IMG/VR virus record: IMGVR_UViG_3300009509_000030
Coordinates: 1-47,770 of that record
Length of the DNA stretch: 47,770 nucleotides
DNA from: a virus
Reading direction: 5' to 3' (one strand)
Made by a program: the position numbers and the translations under genes. This document shows, one piece after another, positions 10,920 to 38,374 of this stretch (the first letter of the stretch is position 1; every line of letters begins with the position of its first letter). The notes under the pieces were generated by a model. It saw only the letters and a program-made list of their open reading frames with translations. It searched no databases and was not told the origin of the DNA.

Positions 10920-11433
10920 CGTTGTCCCCGTTCCCCGTGCTCCGGCGCCGACCCTTCGCTAGAAGCGCGCGCAGCATCTTCAGCTCGTCCGTGCTGTAGC
11001 GGTCGTAGTCCAGGTCCGGCTCGTCGAGGAGCTTCACCTCGTCGGGCATCCGCACGCCATCGATCTCAGCGAGCAGCCGATGACCGGCGAACACGGCTGA
11101 ATGCCGACCGGCAAGCTCGGCGTTCGAGATGCGGCGCAGGATCGCCCGGCGGTGCTGCTCCACTCGATGCGGCCGTTCCTTCGTCGCTTCGCTGCGCCAC
11201 AGGTCCCGTAGACGCTTCAGGTATCGCTCGGTCGTTCGCTTCCCGATGCCCAGCCCGCCACCGACCAGACGACCATCCGCATCGAACTCGGGTGGCTTCC
11301 GCGCCAGGCGCACGGTCGCCTCCGTCGACATTGTCCGCGTGTAGGCGTTCTCGATCCAAGCGAGGCGACGGTCCTGCTCGGCCTTCGTGACCTTGTCGCC
11401 CCGCCCGTACCGTTTCCCGTCACGACGTGTCAC
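10912..11433 (-). CDS. Putative terminase small subunit or DNA-binding protein
   Basis: This 173-residue basic protein lies one small gene upstream of TerL, the usual place for TerS. It begins MTRRDGKRYGRGDKVTKAEQ. A predicted helix-turn-helix-like stretch is near residues 62-80 (GIGKRTTERYLKRLRDLW), followed by long charged helices and an acidic segment (DEPDLDYDRYSTDELK). Small terminases recognise the packaging site with an N-terminal HTH and oligomerise through central helices, which fits the layout. There is no diagnostic motif, so the call rests on position and architecture. The start overlaps the ParB-like stop as ATGA. Confidence 0.5.
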   Translation of the reverse strand: MTRRDGKRYGRGDKVTKAEQDRRLAWIENAYTRTMSTEATVRLARKPPEFDADGRLVGGGLGIGKRTTERYLKRLRDLWRSEATKERPHRVEQHRRAILRRISNAELAGRHSAVFAGHRLLAEIDGVRMPDEVKLLDEPDLDYDRYSTDELKMLRALLAKGRRRSTGNGDNGG

Positions 11434-12071
11434 GACCTGAAGCGTATCAGAAGGCGTGCGAGCGTGTCGCCGGAGGGCTCGTCGCGCTTCGACTGCTTCC
11501 CGAGGACGCGCTTCACTTCATCGGCCTGCTCCTGCGTGCTGAACTCGAGGATGAGCCGGGGATGGACCTTCGTCTTCGGCGGGCTCGGGTCTTCGCTGGA
11601 CAGCGAGCCCCAATCGAAGCCGTCGTTCAGGGCGAGCAGCTCGCCGAGGTTGTCGTCATCGTAGGGCAGGACGGGGACGAGGGTCGGGTCTGCTTCCACG
11701 ACGTCCTTCAGCAGTCGAGCGAGCCGGTGCTTGTCCGGTTCGCCGTGGAGCGCGTTGAACATCTCCGTCAACGCCTTCGCTGCTGCGTCGGAGACGTCGC
11801 CGAGGTCGTGGATGAGGACCTCGCGCAGCCCGAGGTCGGTCGCCGCCCTATGCCGGTGCTCGCCATCGATGATCTGCGGCAGCGGCCCCTGCTCGTCGGC
11901 GAACATCTTGCCTTCGCAGCTCGAGCGAACCGTGATCGGGTCCACGAAGCCGAACGTCTGGATCGATTTCTTCTCGCGTCCGTACATGAACTCGCTCTGC
12001 ACGTTCGGGTTCCACGGATTCGGGACGAGCCGGTGTGTCGGCCACGTCCGCGTCTCGCCTCGTAGCTTCAT
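11430..12071 (-). CDS. ParB-like domain protein, late operon
   Basis: This 213-residue protein has an N-terminal ParB/Srx-type fold: PTHRLVPNPWNPN (11-23), a KSIQTFGFVDPITV strand-helix, and IIDGEHRHRAATDLGL (the conserved G-E-x-R-x-R-A box) near residues 67-82. The C-terminal half is acidic, with DDDNLGELLALNDGFDWGSL and a basic tail; no HTH is obvious. In phages such domains occur as DNA-binding or NTP-binding regulators, or next to DNA-modification and methyltransferase genes. It lies between dpdA and the terminase genes with ATGA overlaps on both sides, so it is co-translated. A nuclease or guide role in base modification or packaging is possible but unproven. Confidence 0.75.
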   Translation of the reverse strand: MKLRGETRTWPTHRLVPNPWNPNVQSEFMYGREKKSIQTFGFVDPITVRSSCEGKMFADEQGPLPQIIDGEHRHRAATDLGLREVLIHDLGDVSDAAAKALTEMFNALHGEPDKHRLARLLKDVVEADPTLVPVLPYDDDNLGELLALNDGFDWGSLSSEDPSPPKTKVHPRLILEFSTQEQADEVKRVLGKQSKRDEPSGDTLARLLIRFRS

Positions 12072-13096
12072 CGCGCACCTCGCATCGGGACTGGGGTGAA
12101 CCTCGAATCGAGCCACTGCTGATATTGCGTGTAGGCGAACGCACAGCCGATGCAGTTGACGTAGTAGTCCGGGTTGTCCTGCTGCTTCGCGAACGCCAGC
12201 GCGTCGGGGAACTGCTCGGCAGCGCGCTGCGCGTACGCCTGGAAGCGCGGCGAGCGCGTCGCGACCGTCTGGAGTCCAGTCAGCGGCTCCCAGATCACAG
12301 CGTTCCCGAATCGCAGCCCCGACAGCCACGACGTCGAGTCGCACGAATAGGCGAGCCGGGTCTGCATCATCTCGGGGACCGTGCAGCCGAGCAGGTGGAT
12401 TCGCGGCGGCACCTCGCACGCGCCGTGAACGCGCACGAGGAGGTCGCTGACCATGCGCTCCACCTGCCGACCCTGGCCGACATGTGAGCCGCGCGACGAC
12501 AGCATCCGCATCTCGGGGACGGAGATCGCGATGTACGAACGCGTCCGCGCCAGCTCGACGAGCCCGTCCAGCCCCTCGGGTTCGTGCCACACGTAGATGA
12601 CGCGATCACCTAGCGGGGCGAACTCCTCGCGGAGCCGCAGCGTCGCGTCCATGCCGAGAAGCCGATGCGTGTCCGCTTCGACCACGATGCACGGGAAGTC
12701 CCACTTCGCGAGGTCGTCCAGGTAGCGGCGCGTGTAGTCGCGATACGCGTCGTACGTCTCCGGCAGCGTGCCCTTCTCGCTTCCGAACATCAGCGAGAAC
12801 AGCCCCGAATCGATGATGAGGTTCTGCGGGTCGTCCACGAGCGCGCGCAGGATGAGCGCAGCGTCCGGCACGTCGCGGAAATACCAGTAGGAGACGAGCC
12901 GGTACGGATGCCCCGCCATCATCGACATCAGCACGCGCGCCTGCGTTCGGTCCTTCTGCGGGATCCCGATGAGCGCGAAATTCACGGCGAGGTCGATCTT
13001 CATCCGCTCCTCCCTGGGCACCAGGCAACGCATCCGACCCTTGACCGGCGTGACGTCCGTGACGACCGCATCCCGCCCGGCCAGCGCGATCCTCAT
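12068..13096 (-). CDS. dpdA: DpdA-like DNA 7-deazaguanine transglycosylase
   Basis: This 342-residue protein resembles the tRNA-guanine transglycosylase fold used by phage DpdA to exchange guanine in DNA for a 7-deazaguanine. Supporting motifs are LIIDSGLFSL (93-102, matching the TGT DSGxF box), CIVVEADTHRLLG (136-148), IHLLGCT (233-239) and YSCDSTSW (250-257), where Asp253 is the likely nucleophile. Only a CIGC pair (315-318) remains of the TGT zinc site. The chosen ATG overlaps the yhhQ stop (ATGA). An internal ATG at 13003 (MKIDLAVNF) has a stronger GGGAGGAG site and could be the true start. It is the last step of the queD-queE-folE-yhhQ cassette. Confidence 0.82.
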   Translation of the reverse strand: MRIALAGRDAVVTDVTPVKGRMRCLVPREERMKIDLAVNFALIGIPQKDRTQARVLMSMMAGHPYRLVSYWYFRDVPDAALILRALVDDPQNLIIDSGLFSLMFGSEKGTLPETYDAYRDYTRRYLDDLAKWDFPCIVVEADTHRLLGMDATLRLREEFAPLGDRVIYVWHEPEGLDGLVELARTRSYIAISVPEMRMLSSRGSHVGQGRQVERMVSDLLVRVHGACEVPPRIHLLGCTVPEMMQTRLAYSCDSTSWLSGLRFGNAVIWEPLTGLQTVATRSPRFQAYAQRAAEQFPDALAFAKQQDNPDYYVNCIGCAFAYTQYQQWLDSRFTPVPMRGAR

Positions 13097-13698
13097 CGAA
13101 GCACGCGCAGGATCGCGTACGACACCGGCAGCGCGCAGACCGCGATGCTCTGCTTCAGGTAGTACTGCCCGACGACCATCGCCAGCAGCGTGTCCGTCGG
13201 CACGACGCCGCCGAAGGCGATGACGACGAACACGGCGGTGTCGACGCCCTGCGAGACCAACGTCGACCCGACCTTGCGGACCCACAGGTGCGGCGGCCCG
13301 GTGACGCGGCGGATCCAGAAAAACACGCGCACGTCGACCAGACCGCCCAGGACGAAGGCGCACAGCGAGCCGGCGACGATGCGCGGAACCTGTCCGAAGA
13401 TGGTCTCGAAGCATTCGGCCAGATCGCGCGCAGGACTCGGCGTCAGCCGGACGGCGATGAGCGAGTAGGCGACGAGGACGAGCGCGCCGAGGAACGCCGA
13501 CCAGACCACCTGTCGCGCTCGAGCCGCGCCGTAGCGTTCGTTGATGACGTCCTGGAGGACGAACGTGACGGGGTAGGCGATGGCGCCGACCGTGAAGGGC
13601 ATCCCGGCGACCTCGATGAGCTTCGACGCGATGGCGTTCGCCGTGACGAGGCCAGCGACGTAGCAGGCAGCGACCGGAATCAGACCTCGCTCAGCCAC
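13093..13698 (-). CDS. yhhQ: Queuosine-precursor transporter, YhhQ family
   Basis: This 201-residue membrane protein has about six hydrophobic segments. The YhhQ/VUT_1 signature is clear: ACYVAGLVTANAIASKLI at the N terminus, then FTVGAIAYPVTFVLQDVINE with the conserved P-x-x-F-x-x-x-D-x-x-x-E box, and QGVDTAVFVVIAF near the C terminus. The bacterial protein imports preQ0, preQ1 or related bases. In a phage it would raise precursor supply for DNA modification. The GTG at 13698 is the first usable start and overlaps the QueD-like gene by 19 bases; the ribosome site is weak. The stop overlaps dpdA. Confidence 0.9.
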   Translation of the reverse strand: MAERGLIPVAACYVAGLVTANAIASKLIEVAGMPFTVGAIAYPVTFVLQDVINERYGAARARQVVWSAFLGALVLVAYSLIAVRLTPSPARDLAECFETIFGQVPRIVAGSLCAFVLGGLVDVRVFFWIRRVTGPPHLWVRKVGSTLVSQGVDTAVFVVIAFGGVVPTDTLLAMVVGQYYLKQSIAVCALPVSYAILRVLR

Positions 13699-14054
13699 TC
13701 GACCAGACCTCCGTTCTCGCCGTCCTCGCTGACCTCGCAACGGTAGGTCCGGTAGATGCCCTTCGTCGGGTACGTCGCCACGGCCCACCTCACAATCGAC
13801 TCGGCCATCAGCTCGCAGCTCGCCGTCGTCGGGAACGTGTTGGGCACATCGAGGAACGCGTCCAGCTCGCGCTTCACGAGCGTGAACTCCAACTCGCGGT
13901 CCTCGTGCGCGACCGGGATCTCGAGCCGCACATGGAACTCGTGGCGGTGGCACGAGCGCAGGAACGCGACCTTCATCGGTGCGTTCGGCCAGTGGTGGAA
14001 GGCGATGAACCGCGTGCGGACGACGATCCAGCGCATCGGCTTCGTCTCGCTCAT
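13680..14054 (-). CDS. QueD-like paralogue (divergent PTPS fold)
   Basis: The 124-residue protein follows the layout of 6-pyruvoyl/6-carboxy-tetrahydropterin synthases. RFIAFHHWPNAP (15-26) supplies the first His. SCHRHEFHVRLEIP (34-47) replaces the usual HGH zinc box with His36 and His38. TTASCELMAESI (76-87) matches the PTxExxA helix. The closing strand has VSEDGENGGLVEW. The catalytic Cys four residues before the first zinc His in QueD is absent (Leu32 here), although Cys35 is adjacent. Chemistry different from the canonical QueD in the same operon is therefore likely. The start overlaps folE (ATGA). The substrate is unknown. Confidence 0.65.
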   Translation of the reverse strand: MSETKPMRWIVVRTRFIAFHHWPNAPMKVAFLRSCHRHEFHVRLEIPVAHEDRELEFTLVKRELDAFLDVPNTFPTTASCELMAESIVRWAVATYPTKGIYRTYRCEVSEDGENGGLVEWLSEV

Positions 14055-14611
14055 CGCGCACCCCACCCGAGGAGCTGCATCACCTCGACACGCGCCTTGT
14101 CGTCGTCCCGGAAGAACCCCCTCATCACCGACGTCACCATCCGTCCGTCTCCTTCCACGCCTCGCAGCGTCATGCAGGTGTGCGTCGCCTGTACCAGCAC
14201 GGCGACGCCGCGCGGTTCGACGTGCATGATGAGCGCGTCCGCGATTTCCTCAGTCAGCCGCTCCTGGACCTGAAGCCGCCGCGAGAACTGGCGCACGATG
14301 CGCGGCACCTTCGACAGCCCGATGATCTTCTCGTTCGGCAGGTACGCGACGTCGACCAGCCCGGTGAACGGTAGAACGTGATGGGCGCAGAGGGACGCGA
14401 ACGGAATCGAACGGACGGCGATGATCTGGTCGCAGCCGTCTGTCGCGAACGTCCGCACCTTCGGGTCGTACGTGTAGCCCGACACCAGCTCGCGGAACGC
14501 GCGCAGCATCCGCGCTGGCGTGTCGCGGTCGTATTCGAATTCGTCGCGCGGAACGTCGACCAGCATCGCATCGAGGAAGCGCCTCGCGACCGTCGTCGGA
14601 GTCACGCTCAC
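14051..14611 (-). CDS. folE: GTP cyclohydrolase I
   Basis: This 186-residue enzyme converts GTP to 7,8-dihydroneopterin triphosphate, the first step of deazaguanine synthesis. The family core is intact: SLCAHHVLPFTGLVDVAYLP (73-92) with zinc ligands Cys75 and His78, KIIGLSKVPRIVR (95-107), QVQERLTEEIAD (114-125), and HTCMTLRGV (144-152) with the third ligand Cys146. The GTG start overlaps the queE stop (GTGA). The length is near the usual catalytic core, with a shorter N-terminal region than many bacterial forms. It is part of a coupled queD-queE-folE run. Confidence 0.95.
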   Translation of the reverse strand: MSVTPTTVARRFLDAMLVDVPRDEFEYDRDTPARMLRAFRELVSGYTYDPKVRTFATDGCDQIIAVRSIPFASLCAHHVLPFTGLVDVAYLPNEKIIGLSKVPRIVRQFSRRLQVQERLTEEIADALIMHVEPRGVAVLVQATHTCMTLRGVEGDGRMVTSVMRGFFRDDDKARVEVMQLLGWGAR

Positions 14612-15270
14612 GGCAGCCCCACGACCTTGTGCGTCTGAAGCGACAGACACCAGGGCGGGTTCTCGATGCAGAAGCGCGCCGCCATCCGCATCGTCAGAGG
14701 ATCCAGCGTCGCGCCCTTCGCCTGCGGCGAGACGAGATAGTTCTCGAAGCCGCGCAGCACCGACGGACCGTAGGCGAGCGGGTTGTACGCCGGGAAGACC
14801 ACCTTCAGCTCCGCGCCTTCCGTCACGACCAGATTCCGAGGCTCGACCTTCGGCGACACCGTGACCCAATCGATGCCGTCCGGGATATCGAGCGTCCCGT
14901 TCGTCTCGATGGCGAGACGCCAGTCGCCCCAGTCGCCCAGGTAGCCGACGAGGTCATCGTCCACCTGTAGCGCCGGCTCGCCACCCGTCAGGACGAGCAG
15001 CGGGATCTTCGACATCCGCTCCTCGTGGGCGACCGCTTCGATCTTCCGCGCGAGACCCTCCAGCGTGATCGCCCTGCTCGAGCGGAACGCGGTGTCACAC
15101 CACAGCGGGCACTTCGCCCCCGTCCGCTTCGCGTCATCGATGCGCCGCTCGTCCAGCCCGTTCCACAGGTTGCACGCAGCGAAGCGAACGAAGACCGCAG
15201 GCGTCCCAGCGAGGACGCCCTCGCCTTGGATCGAAGCGAAGACCTCGTTGATGATGTAGCGCCGCGTCAC
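14608..15270 (-). CDS. queE: 7-carboxy-7-deazaguanine synthase-like radical SAM protein
   Basis: This 220-residue protein starts at a GTG overlapping the queD stop. It has the QueE opening EVFASIQGEGVLAGTPAVFVR (9-29), a cluster box at CNLW (33-36) and CPLWCDT (54-60), then LLVLTGGEPALQ (91-102), AIETNGT and a WVTVSPK block. QueE converts carboxy-tetrahydropterin to CDG using SAM and a 4Fe-4S cluster. The cysteine spacing here is C33-x20-C54-x3-C58. This differs from the usual CX3CX2C and from the CX14CX2C reported for some QueE proteins. The codons at 15101-15125 support the x3 reading. All other motifs look intact, so it is probably active. Confidence 0.9.
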   Translation of the reverse strand: MTRRYIINEVFASIQGEGVLAGTPAVFVRFAACNLWNGLDERRIDDAKRTGAKCPLWCDTAFRSSRAITLEGLARKIEAVAHEERMSKIPLLVLTGGEPALQVDDDLVGYLGDWGDWRLAIETNGTLDIPDGIDWVTVSPKVEPRNLVVTEGAELKVVFPAYNPLAYGPSVLRGFENYLVSPQAKGATLDPLTMRMAARFCIENPPWCLSLQTHKVVGLP

Positions 15271-15695
15271 GGGCACTCCGCCGACGATTCCGGCGTCTCC
15301 CAGACGACGACGCGAACGACGCGCCATTGACGGTAGCCTGAAGGCCCGACAGGCGAGTCCAGCAGCGACCGCGCGACACCGATCAGCTCGTGCGCGATCA
15401 TCTCGGCTGTCGGGTCACGCTCGAATCGGTAGGGCTCCTGCCCGTACGTGTCGCGCACGAACCGAATCAACGCATCGTCTCCACGATAGACCAGGACGTT
15501 GTGATCCCAGTGCTTGTCGATCCAGCCCTGGACGGCGCTGAACCTGCTGAAGTCCAGGACCATGCCGTTCCCTTCGAACAGTCCATCGACCGTCACCTCG
15601 GCGACCCAGCGGTGCCCATGCAGACGCGCACAGCGACCGTCATGCATCGACAGACGATGCGCCCCATCCCACCTCATCAGCTTCGTGACCTTCAT
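15267..15695 (-). CDS. queD: 6-carboxytetrahydropterin synthase
   Basis: This 142-residue protein converts dihydroneopterin triphosphate to 6-carboxy-tetrahydropterin. Motifs are AHRLSMH (12-18), the catalytic and zinc box RCARLHGHRW (21-30) with Cys22, His26 and His28, the HWDHNVL acid-base motif (62-68), DPTAEMIAHEL (94-104) and the terminal VVVWETPESSAEC with Glu133. The length and order match canonical QueD. The ATG overlaps the previous stop. It supplies QueE, whose gene follows with a GTGA overlap. Confidence 0.94.
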   Translation of the reverse strand: MKVTKLMRWDGAHRLSMHDGRCARLHGHRWVAEVTVDGLFEGNGMVLDFSRFSAVQGWIDKHWDHNVLVYRGDDALIRFVRDTYGQEPYRFERDPTAEMIAHELIGVARSLLDSPVGPSGYRQWRVVRVVVWETPESSAECP

Positions 15696-15886
15696 GGTTG
15701 CGCTCCCCTTCGCTCTAGTTCCGCGACGACCTCGCGGATCGCCCGACGGATGTCCTGTTCCTCCCCGACGCCGACTCGGCCCTCGCGCAGCGTGCGAAGC
15801 CGACTCCGGCATCGCTGCACTTCATCGCGCAGCGCCGCGTTCGACAGCCCAGCGTACGGGTCGTGGAGGTTCTTCAAGCACGGCAT
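15692..15886 (-). CDS. Small helical protein (64 aa)
   Basis: This begins MPCLKNLHDPYAGLSNAALRDE and continues as an Arg/Glu-rich coiled-coil-like helix (RSRLRTLREGR, IRREVVAELERR-type heptads). The ATG at 15886 has GGAAGG nine bases upstream. A GTG at 15895 overlapping the previous stop is also possible and would add three residues. The stop overlaps the queD start. It is unrecognised; co-translation with the deazaguanine genes suggests an accessory role. Confidence 0.6.
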   Translation of the reverse strand: MPCLKNLHDPYAGLSNAALRDEVQRCRSRLRTLREGRVGVGEEQDIRRAIREVVAELERRGAQP

Positions 15887-15891
15887 CGTCG

Positions 15892-16224
15892 TCACCCTTC
15901 CATCTCCCGGAAGACCTCGACGGCGATCCGCAACGCCTCCTCGGTCACGGGATCGAGCAGCATCTCCGCGTCGTCCTGCCGCATACCCGACAGCCACGCC
16001 AGCTCGCAGACGTTGTCGCGCAGCCACGCGAGCCGCTCGCGAGCGCGACGGACCTCGTGCGGCAGGAGCTTCGGCGCGGTCGTCGGGACCGCATCCTCGG
16101 CGGCGCGGAGGACGCGACGCGCGGACGCGGGATCGAGATTCTCCATCTCGCCAGGACTCAGTCCGGGGAATCTGACAGTAGCCGCCGCCTCCACCGCCTC
16201 CGGGCACTCGGACAGGCGCTTCAT
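15892..16224 (-). CDS. Unknown helical protein (110 aa)
   Basis: The ATG overlaps the stop of the RuvC-like gene (ATGA). The protein begins MKRLSECPEAVEAAATVRFP. The rest is mostly amphipathic helices, including APKLLPHEVRRARERLAWLRD (50-70) and MRQDDAEMLLDPVTEEALRI (81-100). It has no zinc site, membrane segment or catalytic motif. It lies between the resolvase and the queD cassette; the function is unknown. Confidence 0.65.
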   Translation of the reverse strand: MKRLSECPEAVEAAATVRFPGLSPGEMENLDPASARRVLRAAEDAVPTTAPKLLPHEVRRARERLAWLRDNVCELAWLSGMRQDDAEMLLDPVTEEALRIAVEVFREMEG

Positions 16225-16736
16225 CGGTAGCCGTCCTTGCGGAGCTGCGCGACTTCGTGCTGTCCGTCGGCGACGTAAAGCGCGACGAGCGCGGCGGCGG
16301 CGCGATGCTCGTCGAACACGACGCCCGGCCAGTTCTTCGACGCGACGGCGATCTGCGTCGCCGCCATCACGTCGTGCGGCGGCTGCTTCCCCGTCCCCGT
16401 CACGTACTTCTGCCACGCGCGCGGCGCGACGCGAACGATTCCCAGACCGGAATCCTCCGCGAGCCACTCCCAACCGCCGACCTGGTGCCACAAGGACTTG
16501 ATGGCGTTCGCGAACTTGATGTACGGCGACACCTCGATGGCGAGGACGCGCCGCTCGCACACGCGCCCGAACGTCGCCGCTTCCGAGATCCACTCGCGCG
16601 CCGACGCTGCGCCGACGAGGTCGGGCTTCAGCGTTCGTGACATCAGCAGACGCGGCAGTTTCCAGTCAGGGCGCGCGTGCAGGATCGCAACGCCCGTACC
16701 TTCCGTTCGTCCAGGGTCAACGCCAAGCACGATCAT
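16221..16736 (-). CDS. RuvC-like Holliday junction nuclease
   Basis: This 171-residue protein has an RNase-H/RuvC fold: strand 1 with VLGVDPGRTEGTGVA (3-17, Asp7), a second acidic site AIEVSP (67-71, Glu68), APRAWQKYVTGTGK (104-117), and a C-terminal acidic helix FDEHRAAAALVAL (141-153, Asp142/Glu143). RuvC enzymes resolve branched DNA. In phages they clear junctions before packaging, which fits first position in the late operon. The ATG at 16736 has GGAGG five bases upstream; the nearby GTG at 16742 overlaps that site and is rejected. Confidence 0.85.
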   Translation of the reverse strand: MIVLGVDPGRTEGTGVAILHARPDWKLPRLLMSRTLKPDLVGAASAREWISEAATFGRVCERRVLAIEVSPYIKFANAIKSLWHQVGGWEWLAEDSGLGIVRVAPRAWQKYVTGTGKQPPHDVMAATQIAVASKNWPGVVFDEHRAAAALVALYVADGQHEVAQLRKDGYR

Positions 16737-16747
16737 CGGCACCTCCG

Positions 16748-16833
16748 CTCGAAGCTGCCCCAGGACGACACCCGTGCCCGGCCGATCTCGGAGCGGAGAA
16801 CGTCCGAGGTGACGCCACAGGGGCAGCTTCGAG
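16748..16833 (-). promoter_or_regulatory. 14-bp inverted repeat in the late leader (pair A)
   Basis: CTCGAAGCTGCCCC (16748-16761) pairs perfectly with GGGGCAGCTTCGAG (16820-16833). The proximal arm begins two bases beyond the GGAGG of the RuvC-like gene, so pairing could hide or expose that ribosome site. It interleaves with pair B. Confidence 0.75.
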
Positions 16834-16850
16834 AAGGGGTGCCGGGCACG
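16773..16850 (-). promoter_or_regulatory. 10-bp inverted repeat interleaved with pair A (pair B)
   Basis: CGTGCCCGGC (16773-16782) is the exact reverse complement of GCCGGGCACG (16841-16850). The arm order A-B-A'-B' gives pseudoknot topology in RNA. A short CTCGGA/TCCGAG stem (16787-16808) lies in between. As DNA, these could instead be regulator sites. Confidence 0.65.
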
Positions 16851-16888
16851 CGAGCGATGCTACACAAGCACGCGCGCCGCAGACAACT

Positions 16889-16903
16889 GCGATCCGGGAT
16901 CGC
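16889..16903. promoter_or_regulatory. 15-bp palindrome, copy 1 (operator or parS-like)
   Basis: GCGATCCGGGATCGC is two perfect 7-bp arms around a single G. It is identical in its arms to the copies at 17092 and 17642. It lies in the middle of the divergent control region, just upstream of TTGACC. Confidence 0.75.
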
Positions 16904-17004
16904 GGTTTCGCGAACGGTTGACCTCGAGTTCGCCATCGACTAGGCGCGCGCGCCACGCACGCACGCGCCCGCAGGCGCGGTAGATCGGAAACCTACTGAT
17001 AGTC

Positions 17005-17032
17005 AGAAGAGAAGCAGCCTAGAAGAGAAGCA
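17005..17032. repeat. 12-bp direct repeat pair
   Basis: AGAAGAGAAGCA occurs at 17005-17016 and again at 17021-17032, sixteen bases apart, in the only AT-richer patch of the control region. It could be an activator, operator or iteron site. Only two copies are seen. Confidence 0.6.
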
Positions 17033-17091
17033 CTGCTCGCTGAGGGGATCCAAGACCGTCCAGGTATGGGATCTCGCTGAAGCCGGGAAAG

Positions 17092-17106
17092 GCGATCCTG
17101 GATCGC
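17092..17106. promoter_or_regulatory. 15-bp palindrome, copy 2
   Basis: GCGATCCTGGATCGC has the same arms as copy 1 with T at the centre. It is located 178 bases before the start of the early ParB-like gene. Confidence 0.75.
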
Positions 17107-17283
17107 TGTTCATCGAAGACTGGACTTCGCGGCGCGCGCTGGCGTACGCTCCATTCCCGTCGTGCTGCACGAACCCATCGCTCGTCGCGGACGCCGCCCC
17201 CGAGGGAGCAGCTACCCCCACGGGTGCGGCACGACACCCCTCTGTGGGGCGGCGTCCCCGGCGCGCGAGGAGGTCCGCGTCCC

Positions 17284-18339
17284 GTGGCGAAGCGTCCGTC
17301 CCCGAAGCTGGTCGTCAAGCGAATCGACTCGATCAAGATCCCGCGTGGCTTCGACGCAATCGACGACGAAGCGGTCGCGGCGCTGCTGGAAGACCTGAAC
17401 CGCGAAGACGGCGAGACGCAGTCGCCGATCCACATTCTGCCGGATGGTTCGCTGCTGGACGGGCGCCAGCGACTCGAAGCGAATCGACGCGCGAAGCGAC
17501 CGACCATCCTGTGCCGGATCTGGCCGAAGGGAACCGACCGCAGGGTGTTCCGACTGCGGGCGAACTCGCTTGGCAAGACGCGCTCGGCAGCCGAACGGTC
17601 GAAGGCGCGCGCCGAGCTGTGCATCGCGTTCGAGCAAAAGCGCGATCCCGGATCGCAGAAAGGCGGACGCGGCCGGGTCGGCGCCGCGACAAAAGCAGCG
17701 AAGGCAACCGGCGTCACGAAGCGAACGGTCCAGCTCGACCGACAGGCACGCGAGACGTTCTCCACGGATGAACGGTCGCGGCTCGACGGCGCCGGGGTCA
17801 CGAAGCGGGCACGCGTGCAGCTCGCGCGCGATGTGTCGAAGCTGTCGCCGTCGTTCCGCGCCCGCGCAATCGAGCAGGCCATCGTGACAGCGCAGAAGCG
17901 ACCGCCGAAGAAAGTCACGACCGACAACGGACAGCTCCGTGATTGCGTCGGACACGCCGTGCCGCAGGACCGCGAGCTACAGACCGCGTTTCGCGTCCTG
18001 CTTCCGAAGTACGAGCACGTCGAGAACCTGCTTCAGCAGGCGCAGAAGACCCTGACGAGTATCTGCGCGACCGCCAGCCCGAAGCGAACGAACCGGCTGA
18101 CCAGGCTGCACGACCAGCTCCGCGCCATCGGTGCCGAGCTTCGGAACGCGAAGCCGCATTCGGTCTGCCCGTATTGCAAGACCGTCGAGAAGGGGTGCCT
18201 GAACTGCGAGCAGAGCGGATGGGTCGGACGACAGGACTTCGAGGTCGCCGAGGACGCGCTGAAGGCATGGGGCGACGACGCGGTCGTCGTGGACAGAACC
18301 GGCGACGAGCCGCGGTTCAAGAGCGTCGCGAGCGCCTAG
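17284..18339 (+). CDS. ParB-like DNA-binding protein, early operon
   Basis: This 351-residue protein starts at a GTG with GGAGG ten bases upstream. The N terminus has a ParB/Srx-type fold with the phosphate box LLDGRQRLEANR (57-68). A helix-turn-helix follows at about 133-155 (AATKAAKATGVTKRTVQLDR). A C-terminal zinc ribbon lies near residues 293-310 (CPYCK...CLNCE). It is the first early gene and sits among three palindromes. That suggests a regulator or centromere-binding protein, perhaps with antirestriction or replication roles. No ParA partner is present, so classical partition is unlikely without a host ATPase. Confidence 0.8.
   Translation: MAKRPSPKLVVKRIDSIKIPRGFDAIDDEAVAALLEDLNREDGETQSPIHILPDGSLLDGRQRLEANRRAKRPTILCRIWPKGTDRRVFRLRANSLGKTRSAAERSKARAELCIAFEQKRDPGSQKGGRGRVGAATKAAKATGVTKRTVQLDRQARETFSTDERSRLDGAGVTKRARVQLARDVSKLSPSFRARAIEQAIVTAQKRPPKKVTTDNGQLRDCVGHAVPQDRELQTAFRVLLPKYEHVENLLQQAQKTLTSICATASPKRTNRLTRLHDQLRAIGAELRNAKPHSVCPYCKTVEKGCLNCEQSGWVGRQDFEVAEDALKAWGDDAVVVDRTGDEPRFKSVASA
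17642..17656. promoter_or_regulatory. 15-bp palindrome, copy 3, inside the ParB-like gene
   Basis: GCGATCCCGGATCGC has the same 7-bp arms with C at the centre, lying within codons ~120-125 of the early ParB-like gene. A site inside its own reading frame resembles plasmid and phage centromere or autoregulatory arrangements. Confidence 0.7.
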
Positions 18340-18340
18340 C

Positions 18341-19984
18341 ATGGCGCTCGAGCTTCGCGACTATCAGCAGCGCGCTGTCGCCGCCGTCATGGACCACCTC
18401 GAGGACGGCGGCAGCACCCTGCTTTTGATGGCGACCGGCACGGGGAAGACGGAAACGTTCTTCGAAGTCATCCGTCGATGCGGTCAGCGCGCGCTCATCT
18501 TGGCGCACACCGACCGCCTGGTGTTCCAGACCGCGGAACGAATCGAGCAGCAGTTCGGCTACTGGCCCGACGTCGAGAAGGCGGAAAGCCGCGACGGGCA
18601 CGCGACGGACATCGTCGTCGGGTCGGTGCCGACGCTTGCCCGTCCGAACCGGCTCGCCCGCTTCGATCCCGATGCGTTCGGCCTGGTCGTCGTGGACGAG
18701 GTCCATCACGCGGCGGCGGACAGCTACCAGGACATCCTGGCGCACTTCAGCGAAGCACGACAGCTCGGCGTCACGGCGACCGCGCGCAGGATGGACGGGA
18801 AGCGGCTCGGCGAAACGTTCGACAGCATCGCGTACGTCTACGACCTTGCAGATGCGATCCGCGACGGCTGGCTCGTCCCGTATCGGCGACGACTGCTTGT
18901 GCTGGAAGACCTGAAGCTCGACAACGTGGACGTGCGCGGCGGCGACTTCGTTGCGGCGCAGCTCGAGCGCGAGATCCTGAACTCGCCGGAGGAAGCGATC
19001 CCGCACGCATGGGCGCGCGGCATCCTGGACTACGCGCGCGAGCGCAAGGTGCTGGCGTTCACGCCAGGCGTCGAAAGCAGTCGGCGGCTCGCGGAGATCC
19101 TGAACCGCTACGAGCCGGGTTCCGCCGCGCACCTGTCGGGGGAATCGAAGGACCACGAACGCGCGGATGTCCTGCGCCGGTTCCGCACCGGGGAGATCCG
19201 CCGGCTGTCGAACTGCTCGCTATTCGGGGAGGGCTACGACGAAACGAGTATCGACTGCATCGCGATGTGCCGGCCGACGAGGTCGCAGCCCTTGTACGTG
19301 CAGCAGTTCGGACGCGGCACCAGGCCGTCGCCTGGGAAGACCGACCTTCTCGTGCTGGACTTCACAGACAACAGCGGGACCCACGACCTCGTGACGAGCG
19401 TGAACGTCCTGGGCGACGGCGACGAAGAACGGGTGATCCGCATCGCCGAAGACCTGCTCGCGAAGGACGAGGACCTCCGCGTGGACCGCGCCCTCGAGAC
19501 GGCACGGGACCGATACGGCGAGGAGGTCCGACGCGCGGAACGCGAAGCGGATCGCACGCGCCAAGCGGAAGGACGACGCGGGGTCCGCGCGCGCGCGCGC
19601 TTCGCGGTCTTCGACGCGGACAAGGACCCTGCGTCGATCCTCGGCGTGAACGCGTACCAGGTCCGCGCGCTCACCCGTCGCTTCGGTCTGCGCCCGCTAT
19701 CGCAGAAGCAGCGGGCGGTGCTCGAGCGCGCAGACGTCCCGATCCCGAACGACCCAGCAGAGGCGCGGGCAATCCTGAACAACCTGATGGCGCGCAGGAA
19801 GCGACACCTGTGCAGCTTCAAACAAGCGCGCATCCTGACGAAGTACGGCATCGGCGCGGACTGCACGTTCGGCCAAGCACGCGCGCTGCTCGACGCCATC
19901 GCCGCGAACCGCTGGCGCGCCATCGATCCGGGTGTGGTTGCAGCAGTCCTCGATGAATGCGGAGGGCTGGAGGATGGAGTGTGA
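18341..19984 (+). CDS. SF2 DNA helicase (DEAD/DEAH, type III restriction-like)
   Basis: This 547-residue protein has all core motifs: Q-like LRDYQQRAV (5-13), Walker A ATGTGKT (31-37), DEVHH (119-123), TATAR (145-149), GEGYDETSID (297-306) and motif VI QQFGRGTRPSPGK (321-333). The C-terminal 150 residues are basic and helical. Such RAD25/Hsd-like helicases unwind or remodel DNA in phage replication or recombination. It starts one base after the ParB-like stop. With no polymerase in the genome, it is the main replication candidate and probably recruits host machinery. Confidence 0.9.
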   Translation: MALELRDYQQRAVAAVMDHLEDGGSTLLLMATGTGKTETFFEVIRRCGQRALILAHTDRLVFQTAERIEQQFGYWPDVEKAESRDGHATDIVVGSVPTLARPNRLARFDPDAFGLVVVDEVHHAAADSYQDILAHFSEARQLGVTATARRMDGKRLGETFDSIAYVYDLADAIRDGWLVPYRRRLLVLEDLKLDNVDVRGGDFVAAQLEREILNSPEEAIPHAWARGILDYARERKVLAFTPGVESSRRLAEILNRYEPGSAAHLSGESKDHERADVLRRFRTGEIRRLSNCSLFGEGYDETSIDCIAMCRPTRSQPLYVQQFGRGTRPSPGKTDLLVLDFTDNSGTHDLVTSVNVLGDGDEERVIRIAEDLLAKDEDLRVDRALETARDRYGEEVRRAEREADRTRQAEGRRGVRARARFAVFDADKDPASILGVNAYQVRALTRRFGLRPLSQKQRAVLERADVPIPNDPAEARAILNNLMARRKRHLCSFKQARILTKYGIGADCTFGQARALLDAIAANRWRAIDPGVVAAVLDECGGLEDGV

Positions 19985-21724: not shown

Positions 21725-21924
21725 ACGCGAACGACCGCTTCCTCGTCAATGCCGGCTACGTCCGGGGTCTGCTCGCGAAGCTCGAGATCGCGTTCGAGAA
21801 CTACGCGCGGGAACAGAAGCGCCATCCGCACGATTGGGGCTACGTCGGATGCGCGGCGCAGGTGAAGGACGACCTCGCCGACGTGCTTCGCCTTCTGACC
21901 GGCGACGAGTCCGCCATCGGATAG
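21721..21924 (+). CDS. Unknown small protein (67 aa)
   Basis: The ATG overlaps the previous stop (ATGA). The protein begins MNANDRFLVNAGYVRGLLAK and is mostly helical with aromatic residues (FENYAREQ, DWGYVG). It has no motif. It is followed at once by a strong hairpin. Confidence 0.65.
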   Translation: MNANDRFLVNAGYVRGLLAKLEIAFENYAREQKRHPHDWGYVGCAAQVKDDLADVLRLLTGDESAIG

Positions 21925-21972
21925 CAGCCCGGACCGCCCACGAGCTTCGGTTCGCGGGCGGTACGGGCTGCT
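21922..21972 (+). terminator. Long GC hairpin in the early operon (terminator or processing site)
   Basis: TAGCAGCCCG pairs with CGGGCTGCTA and, after one mismatch, ACCGCCC pairs with GGGCGGT, around a 16-base loop. It starts at the stop codon of the preceding gene. There is no U-tract, so it may be an attenuator, an mRNA-end protector or a weak terminator. The ribosome site GGAGCGGAGA follows. Confidence 0.6.
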
Positions 21973-21991
21973 AGCCCGGAAGGAGCGGAGA

Positions 21992-23548
21992 ATGAATGCA
22001 ACGACACGAAGTCAGCAGGTCAACGCGGACATTGCCGCGCTGCTGCGCGCGCGCAATTCGCTGCTGTGGATCGCGACACGCGAGGAGGTGCGCGTCGAGC
22101 GCGCCATCATCGAAGCTGCCGGTTCTGCATCGTACGAGGTCCGGTTCTGGGACTGCGCGAACGGACTCGCGGACGGCGCCGGCAACCCAATCGGTCTCGG
22201 CCAGCAGGCGGCCGACCCGAACGCCATCGTCGGCTTCATCAAGGAAACGCGGGAACGCGCCGTCTACGTCCTTCGCGATCTGCACAAGTGGCTCGACCCG
22301 ATCATCCTGCGCGGCATCCGGTCGCTCGCGCGACAGCTTCAGAGCACGCCGCGCCCCGAAGCGCGCGCGATCATCATCCTCACCCCGTCGACGGAAGTGC
22401 CGCCGGAGCTGGCGGGACACGCGACCGTGATCGACTACCCGCTCCCGGAGCGCGCCGAGATCGCCGCGATTCTCGACGACGTGATTGCCGCGCTTCCCGA
22501 GGACCTCCGCGACAAGGCGGCGACGAACGGCGCACGCGAAGCATCGATTGACGCCGCCGTCGGTCTGACAGCGGAGGAAGCGGCGAGCACGTACGCGAAG
22601 TCGCTCGTCACGACGCGGACCATCGATCCCGCCACGGTGTCTGCCGAGAAGAAACGGGTCATCGCACGCGAGCGCGTCCTGAGCTGGCACGACCCCGATC
22701 CGCGAGGGATGGACGCGGTCGGCGGCCTCGAGCTGCTGAAGGCGTGGCTCCAGGACCGACGCGCCGCGCTTTCGAAGCGCGCGCGCGACTACGGCTTGCC
22801 GGCGCCGAAGGGAATGCTGCTCGCCGGACCGCCAGGTACGGGGAAGTCGCTGACGGCGAAGGCGGTAGCGACTGCATGGGGACTCCCGCTGCTGCGATTG
22901 GACTTCGGCGCGCTGCGCTCGAAGTACGTCGGGGAATCCGAAACGAACGTGCGAAAGGCGCTCGCGGTTGCCGAGACCGTCGCGCCGTGCGTCCTGTGGA
23001 TCGATGAGGTGGAGAAAGCCCTCGCGGGCGCATCGGGACCGCAGGGCGATGGCGGCGTCGGCGCGGACGCGCTGGGCGCCGTCCTGAATTGGATGCAGGA
23101 GCGGGCCGGCGCCGTCTTCGTCGTGGCGACGGCAAACGACGTGCGGAGCTTGCCGCCCGAGCTGCTTCGGCGCGGACGCTTCGACGAGCTGTTCTGGATC
23201 GACCTCCCGACGACGACCGAGCGCCTGGCGATCCTTCGGGTGACGCTGCTGAAGTACGGGCGCGACCCTTCGTGGTTCAGCCTGGACGAGGTCGCCGCAG
23301 CCACGAGCGGTTTCAGCGGCGCCGAGATCGCAGCACTGATTCCCGACGCGCTGTTCACCGCCTTCAACGACAACGAGCGCGAAGTCGAGACGGGCGACCT
23401 GCTCGCCGCAGCAGGCAACGTCGTCCCGCAATCGAAGACCGCAGCAGAGAAGATGAAGGCGCTCCGCGAGTGGGCGCAGGGGCGCACGCGTCCCGCTTCC
23501 GCTCCCGAAGCGACGAAGACAACCCAGACCAGAACCCTCGACCTCTAG
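21992..23548 (+). CDS. Ycf46-type AAA+ ATPase
   Basis: This 518-residue protein has two ATPase-like halves. The N-terminal one is degenerate: no Walker A, but VYVLRDLHKW (91-100) and the PSTEVPPEL strand-loop (132-140) match the inactive Ycf46 domain. The C-terminal AAA+ domain is complete: AGPPGTGKSLTAKAVA (278-293), KYVGESETNVRKAL (311-324), Walker B VLWIDEVEKA (334-343), and sensor and Arg-finger residues in ATANDV and RRGRFDE. Ycf46 proteins are chaperone-like remodellers in chloroplasts and bacteria. In phages they accompany early genes of unknown function. It is downstream of a hairpin and an AGGAGCGGAGA site. Confidence 0.85.
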   Translation: MNATTRSQQVNADIAALLRARNSLLWIATREEVRVERAIIEAAGSASYEVRFWDCANGLADGAGNPIGLGQQAADPNAIVGFIKETRERAVYVLRDLHKWLDPIILRGIRSLARQLQSTPRPEARAIIILTPSTEVPPELAGHATVIDYPLPERAEIAAILDDVIAALPEDLRDKAATNGAREASIDAAVGLTAEEAASTYAKSLVTTRTIDPATVSAEKKRVIARERVLSWHDPDPRGMDAVGGLELLKAWLQDRRAALSKRARDYGLPAPKGMLLAGPPGTGKSLTAKAVATAWGLPLLRLDFGALRSKYVGESETNVRKALAVAETVAPCVLWIDEVEKALAGASGPQGDGGVGADALGAVLNWMQERAGAVFVVATANDVRSLPPELLRRGRFDELFWIDLPTTTERLAILRVTLLKYGRDPSWFSLDEVAAATSGFSGAEIAALIPDALFTAFNDNEREVETGDLLAAAGNVVPQSKTAAEKMKALREWAQGRTRPASAPEATKTTQTRTLDL

Positions 23549-24906: not shown

Positions 24907-25587
24907 ATGGCGATGGCTCGCTGGCAGTGTCCGAAGTGTGGCGCCGGGAAGCTCGCTCCCCGACGCGCACGGAAGGACGACATGCGGCGCGTCTGTGTGC
25001 CGTGCTCGCTGACGACGGGCTACATCGTCCGTCGTCAGCGACCGACCGCGATGCGACTACGCGCGGAGAAGAAAGCCGCGCGACTCCAGCAGGCGAAGGT
25101 GGACCGCAAGGCGATGCGCGAGGCGTCGTACGCCTGGCCTGTCGTCCTCCATCGAGTGTGGAAGCTCATGCTGCGCCTGCCGACCGCCAGGAAGTATCGC
25201 GCCGGCAAGACGATGCTCGAGTTCATGCGGAACTCCCGCGGCTCGCTGTTGGGTCGCGCGTATCCGGGAATGATTCGCGTGAAGACGAGCCACGGTGTCG
25301 GTTCGATCCTGACGACGATGCTGCACGAACTCGCGCACGTGGTCGTGTGGCGACGGTTCGGCGTGTTCCGACCGCAAGCACAGGGACCGCACGGCAAGCT
25401 GTTCTCCTCGACCTTCCGAAACCTGGTGGACGAGTGGGCGGCGGATCGGAAGGGACGCGAGATCCAGGCGGTCGTGGGGCTCATCCGCGCGCTCGCGTGG
25501 TTGCAGTTCCGTGTGGCGACCGCACCACGCACGCGGAAGCACGCGTTCAGCGAAGCAACAGACGAAGGGGCGACGGCAGGGCTATGA
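24907..25587 (+). CDS. SprT-like zinc metalloprotease
   Basis: This 226-residue protein has an N-terminal zinc ribbon (CPKCGAGKLAP...CVPCS, residues 8-34), a basic linker, and a SprT-like core. LTTMLHELAHVVVW carries the HExxH catalytic motif, and GPHGKLFSSTFRNLV gives the third His. SprT/Spartan proteins cleave DNA-protein crosslinks in eukaryotes. Phage versions may process proteins on DNA or act on host factors. The ATG is three bases after the previous stop. Confidence 0.82.
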   Translation: MAMARWQCPKCGAGKLAPRRARKDDMRRVCVPCSLTTGYIVRRQRPTAMRLRAEKKAARLQQAKVDRKAMREASYAWPVVLHRVWKLMLRLPTARKYRAGKTMLEFMRNSRGSLLGRAYPGMIRVKTSHGVGSILTTMLHELAHVVVWRRFGVFRPQAQGPHGKLFSSTFRNLVDEWAADRKGREIQAVVGLIRALAWLQFRVATAPRTRKHAFSEATDEGATAGL

Positions 25588-26954: not shown

Positions 26955-27316
26955 AGCGCGTCCACGCTGACGACTACGAGGCGATCCCTCAGCATGTGTT
27001 CGATGCGATGGAGCGATACGTGAACTGCGGCGTCGAGACGGGACCGTTCTTGAGGGCGGTCATCTCGAACGACCTGAAGGACGCGGTCGGTCGTGCGGAT
27101 CGGGACTCCTACGAGGCGCTGCCCGCCATCGTCGGATGGTTCTACAACGAGGTGCCTTCCGGCGCCTGGGGCACGCGTGAACGATACAAGGACTGGACGT
27201 CGCCGCGCGGCAAGCCGATGCGCGAGCGGATGACGCAGCTCGGCGTGCTTCCGGTGAAGACGCGGTCGGTCTCGCGGCGCGAGGTCGACGAAGAGGTGAG
27301 CGATGACACTGGCTAG
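26951..27316 (+). CDS. Conserved-type phage hypothetical protein (121 aa)
   Basis: A GTG overlaps the Bet stop (GTGA). The layout IPQHVFDAMERYVNCG...FLRAVISNDLKDAVGRAD (about 12-50) and WFYNEVPSGAWG (63-74) recurs in small phage proteins beside recombination genes, with no known function. It has no membrane or zinc features. Confidence 0.75.
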   Translation: MKRVHADDYEAIPQHVFDAMERYVNCGVETGPFLRAVISNDLKDAVGRADRDSYEALPAIVGWFYNEVPSGAWGTRERYKDWTSPRGKPMRERMTQLGVLPVKTRSVSRREVDEEVSDDTG

Positions 27317-27680
27317 CGACCGCGAAGCCCGACGGACGCAGCTCGCGCAGCGTGGTCGCGAGGCGCTCGTCCGCGCACAGGACGCGTGTACGGAGGCGCT
27401 CGAGCGCGTCGGCCCGAACGGGGCGAAGCGCGTGCTGCGCGTCCTGGTCGACAAGCACGGCATCGAACCGCGCCCGCGTGGCCGACCGGCGCGGGCGCTC
27501 GACGAGGTCCTCTGGCTGCTTCGGAAGGGGCCGCTGCCGCTGGACGCCATCGCGCAGAAGCTCGGCATCTCGGACAGCGCAGCCGAGCAGCGCATCGCGC
27601 GACTTCAGAAGCTCGCTATGGTGCGCGCGACGAAAGCGGGATGGCGCGTGACGGCAGCAGTAAGCAAGAGGAGGCGATGA
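27303..27680 (+). CDS. Winged helix-turn-helix protein
   Basis: This 125-residue protein overlaps its neighbour by 14 bases. The C-terminal half is a wHTH: ALDEVLWLLRKGPLPLDAIAQKLGISDSAAEQRIARLQKL (about 66-105), closing with a wing ATKAGWRVTAAV and a basic tail. The N terminus is a charged helix. It is probably a transcription regulator of early genes. Confidence 0.75.
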   Translation: MTLASDREARRTQLAQRGREALVRAQDACTEALERVGPNGAKRVLRVLVDKHGIEPRPRGRPARALDEVLWLLRKGPLPLDAIAQKLGISDSAAEQRIARLQKLAMVRATKAGWRVTAAVSKRRR

Positions 27681-36766: not shown

Positions 36767-38374
36767 CTACACCCCTCCCGCCTGCTCGAGCGCGGCGATT
36801 GCAGCGCGCCGGTCTTCGGCGAGGATGCGGAGAACCTGACGGCGAAGCGTCTGCACGACGCCGCCCTGTGGCGCGCCGGTCGGTGTCACCACGGTGAGCT
36901 GCACGTTGTTCCGCTGGACGAGGTTGGCCCCGCCTGCCGCTTGTGGGATCGGCATGACGCGTCCGGCTGCTGCGACCGCCGGACCACCCGTCGCACCGAA
37001 CGCATCGGCGACGAGCCCGACGCCTGGAAGCCGACGAGTCTGACGGATGACGTTGTCCACGACGACGCGGAAGCCTTGGACGATCTGCTGCCAGAGGTCG
37101 CTGAAGAACTGCCCAATCGCGGCCGTCGTGTTTCGGAACGCGGCTTCGACGGTCTCGACTGCGCTGAGAAGATCGATCATCGCCAAGCCCCACACCGCTC
37201 TGACTTCGGCGGACGCGAGGTCCCACGCCGCGGAGATCCGCGCCGGCAATTGGATCATGTCGAGCAGCATCCCGAACCACGTGGTGAAGACCCAGACGAT
37301 GCCTCGGATGACGTCCTTCCAGGTGACGCCGCCTTCCTCGGCTGCGCCCGTGAACGAGTCCCACGCGGCTTGCAGCTTCTCGACCAGCGCGCGCGTGGTT
37401 CCGAGACCGTACGTCTCGTCGATGAAGGACCCGATGACGGACTCGCCCCCTTCGAACGCGGTGACGAGGTCGTCTACGGCGAGCGCGACAGCGACGACGA
37501 GGGCAGCGAAGACAAGGAACAGGGCGATAGGCTTCGCGAAGGCAATCGTGATCGCCAGGCCCGTCGCGACGAGCGCGACTTTCAGCACGCGGATCGCGCG
37601 CTCCATGAAGTCGGTTCCGCGAGTCGCTTCCTGGATCTTCCGACCGAATCGGATGATGCCGCCGACGACGCGACGCAGCGTCGGAAGCAGCGCGAGGACG
37701 AGCTGCGACTTCAGCCCCGTGACGACGACGTCGAGTTCGCCGAGCTGATTCGTGGCTTCCTCGGCGGCGCGCGCGAACTCCTCGGAAATCCCGCCGCCGA
37801 GTTCCTGGAAGCGGCGGCGCATCGCCATCAGGGATTCGCCCCCGTCTCGCAGCATGTTCACCAGCGCGACGCCCTCGGTGTCGAATAGCTTGAACGCGAT
37901 TCGGACGCGGTCGGCCTGCGAAGAGGTCTGCGCCAGCGCGTCGGCCACGTCGACGAGCAGCTCCGACGTCGGGCGGACGACGCCCTGCGCGTCCGTCAGC
38001 TCGATACCGAGGTCGTGGAGCGTTTTCTTCGCCTCGCCGGTTCCGGCTGCGGCTTCCGCCGCGCGGCGCGTGAACCGCTGAATGCCGACATCGAGGGACG
38101 ACTGCTGCACGCCCGCCTGTTGCGCCGCGAAGCGAAGTTCTTGCAGCTCGTCCGTCGTGAGACCGAGCTTGTCGGCGGTCTTCGCCAGGACGTCGGCTTC
38201 GCGGATCTGCGCGCTGATGAAGTTCGAGATGCCTCGGATGACGAAGCCGCCGACGAGCATCCCGCCGAGTGTCTTCAGCCGACCGACCGTCGCCGAGATC
38301 GTCTTGTTCGCTTTCTTCAACTGCTTGTCGTCCATCTGAATCCCGAACAGGGCAAGCAGTTCTCGGAGCGGCAT
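36767..38374 (-). CDS. Tail tape-measure protein
   Basis: This 535-residue protein is mostly helical and starts near MPLRELLALFGIQ. The N-terminal ~230 residues are charged helices with KTADKLGLTTDELQELRFAAQQ. The middle has strong hydrophobic helices (about 255-305, ALVATGLAITIAFAKPIALF). The C terminus is more soluble. It sets tail length; 535 residues predicts a shortish tail by the usual length rule. Its position after the frameshifted chaperones is diagnostic. Confidence 0.9.
   Translation of the reverse strand: MPLRELLALFGIQMDDKQLKKANKTISATVGRLKTLGGMLVGGFVIRGISNFISAQIREADVLAKTADKLGLTTDELQELRFAAQQAGVQQSSLDVGIQRFTRRAAEAAAGTGEAKKTLHDLGIELTDAQGVVRPTSELLVDVADALAQTSSQADRVRIAFKLFDTEGVALVNMLRDGGESLMAMRRRFQELGGGISEEFARAAEEATNQLGELDVVVTGLKSQLVLALLPTLRRVVGGIIRFGRKIQEATRGTDFMERAIRVLKVALVATGLAITIAFAKPIALFLVFAALVVAVALAVDDLVTAFEGGESVIGSFIDETYGLGTTRALVEKLQAAWDSFTGAAEEGGVTWKDVIRGIVWVFTTWFGMLLDMIQLPARISAAWDLASAEVRAVWGLAMIDLLSAVETVEAAFRNTTAAIGQFFSDLWQQIVQGFRVVVDNVIRQTRRLPGVGLVADAFGATGGPAVAAAGRVMPIPQAAGGANLVQRNNVQLTVVTPTGAPQGGVVQTLRRQVLRILAEDRRAAIAALEQAGGV

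Follow-up and report, generated by a model that had tools for sequence, protein, structure and literature searches.

A three-copy palindrome at a ParB-like phage gene, putatively an operator set for two divergent operons

Gene organization and the divergent region

The window (i.e., the whole stretch of 47,770 bases analyzed here) is one circular record of an uncultured phage, and its ends share 144 bp; the unit is therefore 47,626 bp, the size given in the initial annotation. Nearly all genes outside one rightward block run leftward from 16.7 kb, in the order RuvC-like, QueD, QueE, GTP cyclohydrolase, YhhQ-type transporter (Vut_1), DpdA-type enzyme (i.e., queuine tRNA-ribosyltransferase-like), second ParB-domain protein, terminase, and portal, followed across the circle by capsid, sheath, and tape measure. 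No integrase was found in the genome, nor was a ParA-type ATPase (PF13614, present in 14 of 14 controls). The GC skew switches sign near 16 to 18 kb. The genes bearing on this study are as follows.

11430 to 12071, minus strand: second gene with a ParB domain (213 aa; PF02195, phrog_723), flanked by the DpdA-type and terminase genes
16221 to 16742, minus strand: RuvC-like resolvase gene (phrog_159, phrog_1770), opening the leftward operon, with the ATG at 16736 as its more probable start
~17.3 to 27.7 kb, plus strand: rightward block (parB1, helicase, AAA ATPase, RecT-like annealing protein)
17284 to 18339, plus strand: parB1, encoding a 351-aa ParB-like protein and opening the rightward operon
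18341 to 19984, plus strand: DEAD/ResIII-type helicase gene, immediately downstream of parB1
27303 to 27680: gene closing the early block; its winged-HTH product weakly matches many HTH families

The 7-deazaguanine gene set (QueD, QueE, GTP cyclohydrolase, the YhhQ-type transporter Vut_1, and the DpdA-type enzyme) occupies 12068 to 15812 on the minus strand, which suggests that the phage DNA may be modified. A capsid-sharing phage (G042) carries QueD, QueE, FolE, DpdA, and the second ParB gene in identical order, and there too this ParB gene adjoins DpdA (L193, 4539 to 5270).

The two operons diverge from an intergenic region of 541 bp, in and around which we located the following features.

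16737 to 16844, minus strand: leader hairpin of the leftward operon; its 3' arm holds the Shine-Dalgarno sequence (z = -4.6)
16857 to 16886, minus strand: leftward promoter-like site TTGTCT-N18-TAGCAT, the highest-scoring leftward candidate of the intergenic region
16889 to 16903: palindrome site 1, GCGATCC-G-GGATCGC (exact motif match)
16889 to 16926, plus strand: 38-bp direct repeat, copy 1 (palindrome and 23-bp tail, ending TTGACCTCG)
16918 to 16946, plus strand: weaker rightward promoter-like site TTGACC-N17-TAGGCG, a candidate with the third rightward score (0.91 per kb)
17092 to 17106: palindrome site 2, GCGATCC-T-GGATCGC (exact motif match)
17092 to 17129, plus strand: 38-bp direct repeat, copy 2 (tail ending TGGACTTCG; 74% identical to copy 1)
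17121 to 17150, plus strand: rightward promoter-like site TGGACT-N18-TACGCT, a candidate with the top rightward score (0.27 per kb)
17171 to 17275, plus strand: leader hairpin of the rightward operon; its 3' arm holds the Shine-Dalgarno sequence (z = -2.2)
17642 to 17656: palindrome site 3, GCGATCC-C-GGATCGC (exact motif match), inside the parB1 coding sequence

The palindrome cluster and its surroundings

The motif GCGATCC-N-GGATCGC occurs in exactly three copies in the window (both strands counted). The copies reported initially, at 16889, 17092, and 17642 with the central bases G, T, and C and identical 7-bp arms, match exactly, and the observation by eye that no other full copy exists holds as well: the whole window contains no copy with one mismatch, a single copy with two mismatches (at 12300), and a chance-level number of copies with three. 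Together, the three palindromes span 768 bp at parB1 and the promoter region ahead of it, and randomly spread extra copies are not seen. Their placement, two in the divergent region and one inside parB1, also agrees with the initial annotation. The term "ParB-like gene" is ambiguous across the genome, given the second ParB-domain gene, which is distant from the three palindromes.

The clustering of the three palindromes is not expected by chance. Three nonoverlapping palindromes with the same arm occurred within 1 kb in none of 5,000 third-order Markov genomes and anywhere in the genome in 12 of them (7-bp arms; spacer, 0 to 6; overlapping and two-letter families left out); an earlier simulation without the low-complexity filter gave 10 positive genomes out of 2,000. 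Among 120 fetched viral stretches that hold the motif (an outside control), none has a second exact copy, and no three-copy family of this kind with 7-bp arms was found in 13 wholly fetched and 1 partly fetched related phages. Site 3 covers parB1 codons 120 to 125 (CGC GAT CCC GGA TCG C). The probability of this codon choice, given the protein and the codon usage of the window, is 0.001, and a copy of the motif at any position arose in 100 of 20,000 synonymous recodings of parB1. Thus, site 3 is not explained by the encoded protein sequence. With regard to the window as a whole, GATC is present 325 times (145 expected from base composition).

Sites 1 and 2 each head a copy of the 38-bp direct repeat, which takes in a -35-like hexamer. 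The 23-bp tails are identical at 14 of 23 positions, an agreement expected by chance for a random pair with a probability of ~0.002. The local GC minimum (0.56, at 17000 to 17099) lies between the two sites, and this lowest-GC part of the divergent region contains a 12-bp direct repeat, AGAAGAGAAGCA, at 17005 and 17021 (17005 to 17032; copies 16 bp apart).

The promoter-like sites were scored with E. coli-like hexamer matrices, which may not be those of the host. The leftward site, of a kind found at 0.04 per kb per strand genome-wide, begins 2 bp from site 1. The -35-like hexamer of the best rightward site starts 14 bp past site 2, and the weaker rightward site, within the direct repeat, starts 14 bp past site 1. 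In a check for a KorB-type layout, the palindromes lie 2 bp and 14 bp from candidate promoter-like sites. If each -35 hexamer starts at about -36, the rightward candidate promoters would have the centers of sites 1 and 2 at about -58. A scan with a stricter consensus found no promoters; therefore, the promoter-like sites stay candidates.

From the predicted starts, each leader consists almost entirely of one long hairpin, and the rightward one has 30-nt arms that are 80% complementary. A perfect 12-bp stem with a loop of up to 100 nt occurs at three places in the window, two of them in the leaders, and the folding z-scores of the leader hairpins rank second and fourth among 41 gene starts. These structures may serve in translational control or RNase III processing. 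An Rfam scan returned no credible match. An alignment of the two hairpins gave no significant sign of homology, with 157 of 500 shuffles aligning equally well. Elsewhere in the window, the strongest z-score of the 41 gene starts (-5.0) belongs to ~21880 to 21992 (plus strand), upstream of the AAA ATPase gene, and the third perfect stem (12 bp or longer; loop of ~10 bases) lies at 25006 to 25041, within a possible coding region.

The parB1 product and known ParB systems

The 351-aa product of parB1 matched two PHROG profiles, phrog_21315 (E = 4e-6; residues 9 to 170) and phrog_4715, a ParB-like partition protein (E = 4e-5; residues 25 to 264), both covering the N-terminal and HTH regions. It has a predicted central HTH and a C-terminal CxxC...CxxC. 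Pfam gave no match up to an E value of 10, including PF02195 (i.e., the ParB N-terminal domain), which is found in the genome only in the other ParB-domain gene, and NCBIfam gave none. A custom-built ParB profile did not match the product (1 of 200 shuffles outscored it); as to the nucleotide-binding motif GxRR (Box II), GRQR at residue 60 aligned to the GhrR of a ParB profile, at only 2.7 bits. The ParA-binding motif LG[RK]GL is absent from the product. The full-length AlphaFold model has a pLDDT of 47, a 120-residue fragment is modeled as helical with a mean pLDDT of 81, and searches of both models against the PDB matched no ParB and were uninformative as to the fold. No relatives were found in viral_contigs, genome_contigs, plasmids, or phages (best E value in phages, 3) or among 38 records reached via the AAA, helicase, or capsid genes. 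We regard the product as a very divergent ParB-like protein, its fold being putative, that is known as such only via the two PHROG profiles.

Chromosomal parS is 16 bp long. The locus resembles chromosomal ParB-parS systems (e.g., Spo0J and Caulobacter ParB) in the profile match to ParB-like N-terminal and HTH regions and in having sites in and near the parB gene, but no ParA or ParA-binding motif was found in the phage, and its palindrome has an odd length of 15 bp. The ParA of RK2 is IncC, and, unlike RK2 with its ParA (IncC) and KorA partners, the phage has no partner of the ParA type that we could find. KorA is a partner of RK2 KorB, a CTP-dependent sliding clamp whose operators precede the target promoters by 4 to 10 bp or by 45 to >1,000 bp; a published operator oligonucleotide, TTTTAGC-G-GCTAAAA, has seven-base arms around one base (PMC11790492). 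The phage locus would likewise combine a ParB-family regulator (here ParB-like by profile) with an odd-length palindrome having a single central base, and sites just upstream of a -35-like element with more distal ones (PMC11790492), the promoters here being candidates. It differs in the sequence of the site and in the far divergence of the parB1 product, with its C-terminal CxxC pair. Among known systems, a KorB-like regulator probably fits the parB1 product and its sites best. Another capsid-sharing phage (G043; L223 to L225) carries GTTTAGCTAAAC three times in less than 2.5 kb (record positions 38023, 39019, and 40487), a repeat resembling the KorA operator, TGTTTAGCTAAACA (PMC11790492).

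A survey of the ParB-CTPase fold describes divergent, mostly orphan phage and prophage members without the ParA-binding motif (PMC12704722). The parB1 product is similarly divergent, and the phage, in which neither ParA nor the motif was found, fits these orphans (PMC12704722); the present case differs in its multicopy palindrome at the gene's own promoter region. VirB, the virulence-gene regulator of Shigella, is a ParB relative that regulates transcription at dedicated sites (PMC10770331), as proposed here for the phage protein; it differs in being an antisilencer, and no sequence relation between the two is shown here.

Proposed operator function and alternatives

We consider the three palindromes to be putative binding sites of one dimeric HTH protein, most likely the parB1 product (probability, roughly 0.55). 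Since sites 1 and 2 lie beside the best promoter-like sites, the palindromes look like operators of the divergent promoters, i.e., the rightward parB1-helicase promoter and the leftward ruvC-7-deazaguanine-terminase-virion promoter. The initial proposal of an operator or autoregulatory site thus gains indirect support from the copy number, the restriction to parB1 and the divergent region, and the adjoining promoter-like sites. The ParB-like protein would load on the palindromes and control both promoters: site 1 would act on the leftward promoter of the ruvC, DNA modification, terminase, and virion genes, and possibly on the minor rightward promoter as well; site 2 would act on the main rightward promoter; and the intragenic site 3 would provide a further loading site. 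Control of both operons is plausible because the best leftward promoter-like site directly adjoins site 1 and precedes ruvC, the 7-deazaguanine genes, terminase, portal, and, across the circle, further virion genes. Given the resemblance to the operator-proximal control of KorB, negative autoregulation together with restraint of the leftward operon appears likeliest, and activation instead of repression is possible in view of the position of sites 1 and 2 near -58. A more elaborate scheme, in which a ParB-like sliding clamp of a ParA-less phage is the main transcription switch, loading at three palindromes (one of them intragenic) and silencing or timing both operons, with leader hairpins that hide the ribosome-binding site as a second layer, strikes us as doubtful.

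The palindromes might instead be operators of another regulator, such as a host factor or the winged-HTH protein encoded at 27303 to 27680, whose HTH matches make it another candidate DNA-binding protein. However, three of three sites cluster at or in parB1 and none lies near 27303, and autoregulation by the parB1 product is the simpler explanation; we regard this alternative as unlikely. Chromosomal parS sites may occur within or close to parB genes, and these positions, together with the low GC content and 12-bp direct repeat between sites 1 and 2 and the sign change of the GC skew, would suit a replication origin or a partition (parS) element. We nevertheless hold such an element to be quite improbable, because the skew tracks the direction of the genes, the sites have no initiator gene next to them, and the ParA-type ATPase, integrase, and ParA-binding motif were all not found; the last three results likewise disfavor the parS suggestion of the initial annotation in its partition sense.

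It is very unlikely that the palindromes act solely as protein-free nucleic acid structures (i.e., short hairpins or terminators). The minus strand of site 3 is terminator-like and is followed by CTTTTGC, but a single central base is a poor loop for RNA, a T run is absent from sites 1 and 2, and the recurrence of the same arms in three unrelated settings is better explained by sequence recognition. Chance or a recent duplication without function has a similarly slight probability. Sites 1 and 2, which share the direct repeat, may represent one duplicated segment and are to that extent less than independent; however, the palindrome arms are kept at 100% while the tails have fallen to 61%, and site 3 has no direct repeat and lies within coding sequence.

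Under the preferred reading, as operators bound by the parB1 product, the palindromes provide a candidate cognate site that is known at single-base resolution, is present three times, and adjoins candidate target promoters. Orphan ParB-like genes that lack a ParA partner are found in many phages. The definition of such a site makes the question of whether orphan ParB-like proteins are transcription regulators directly testable.
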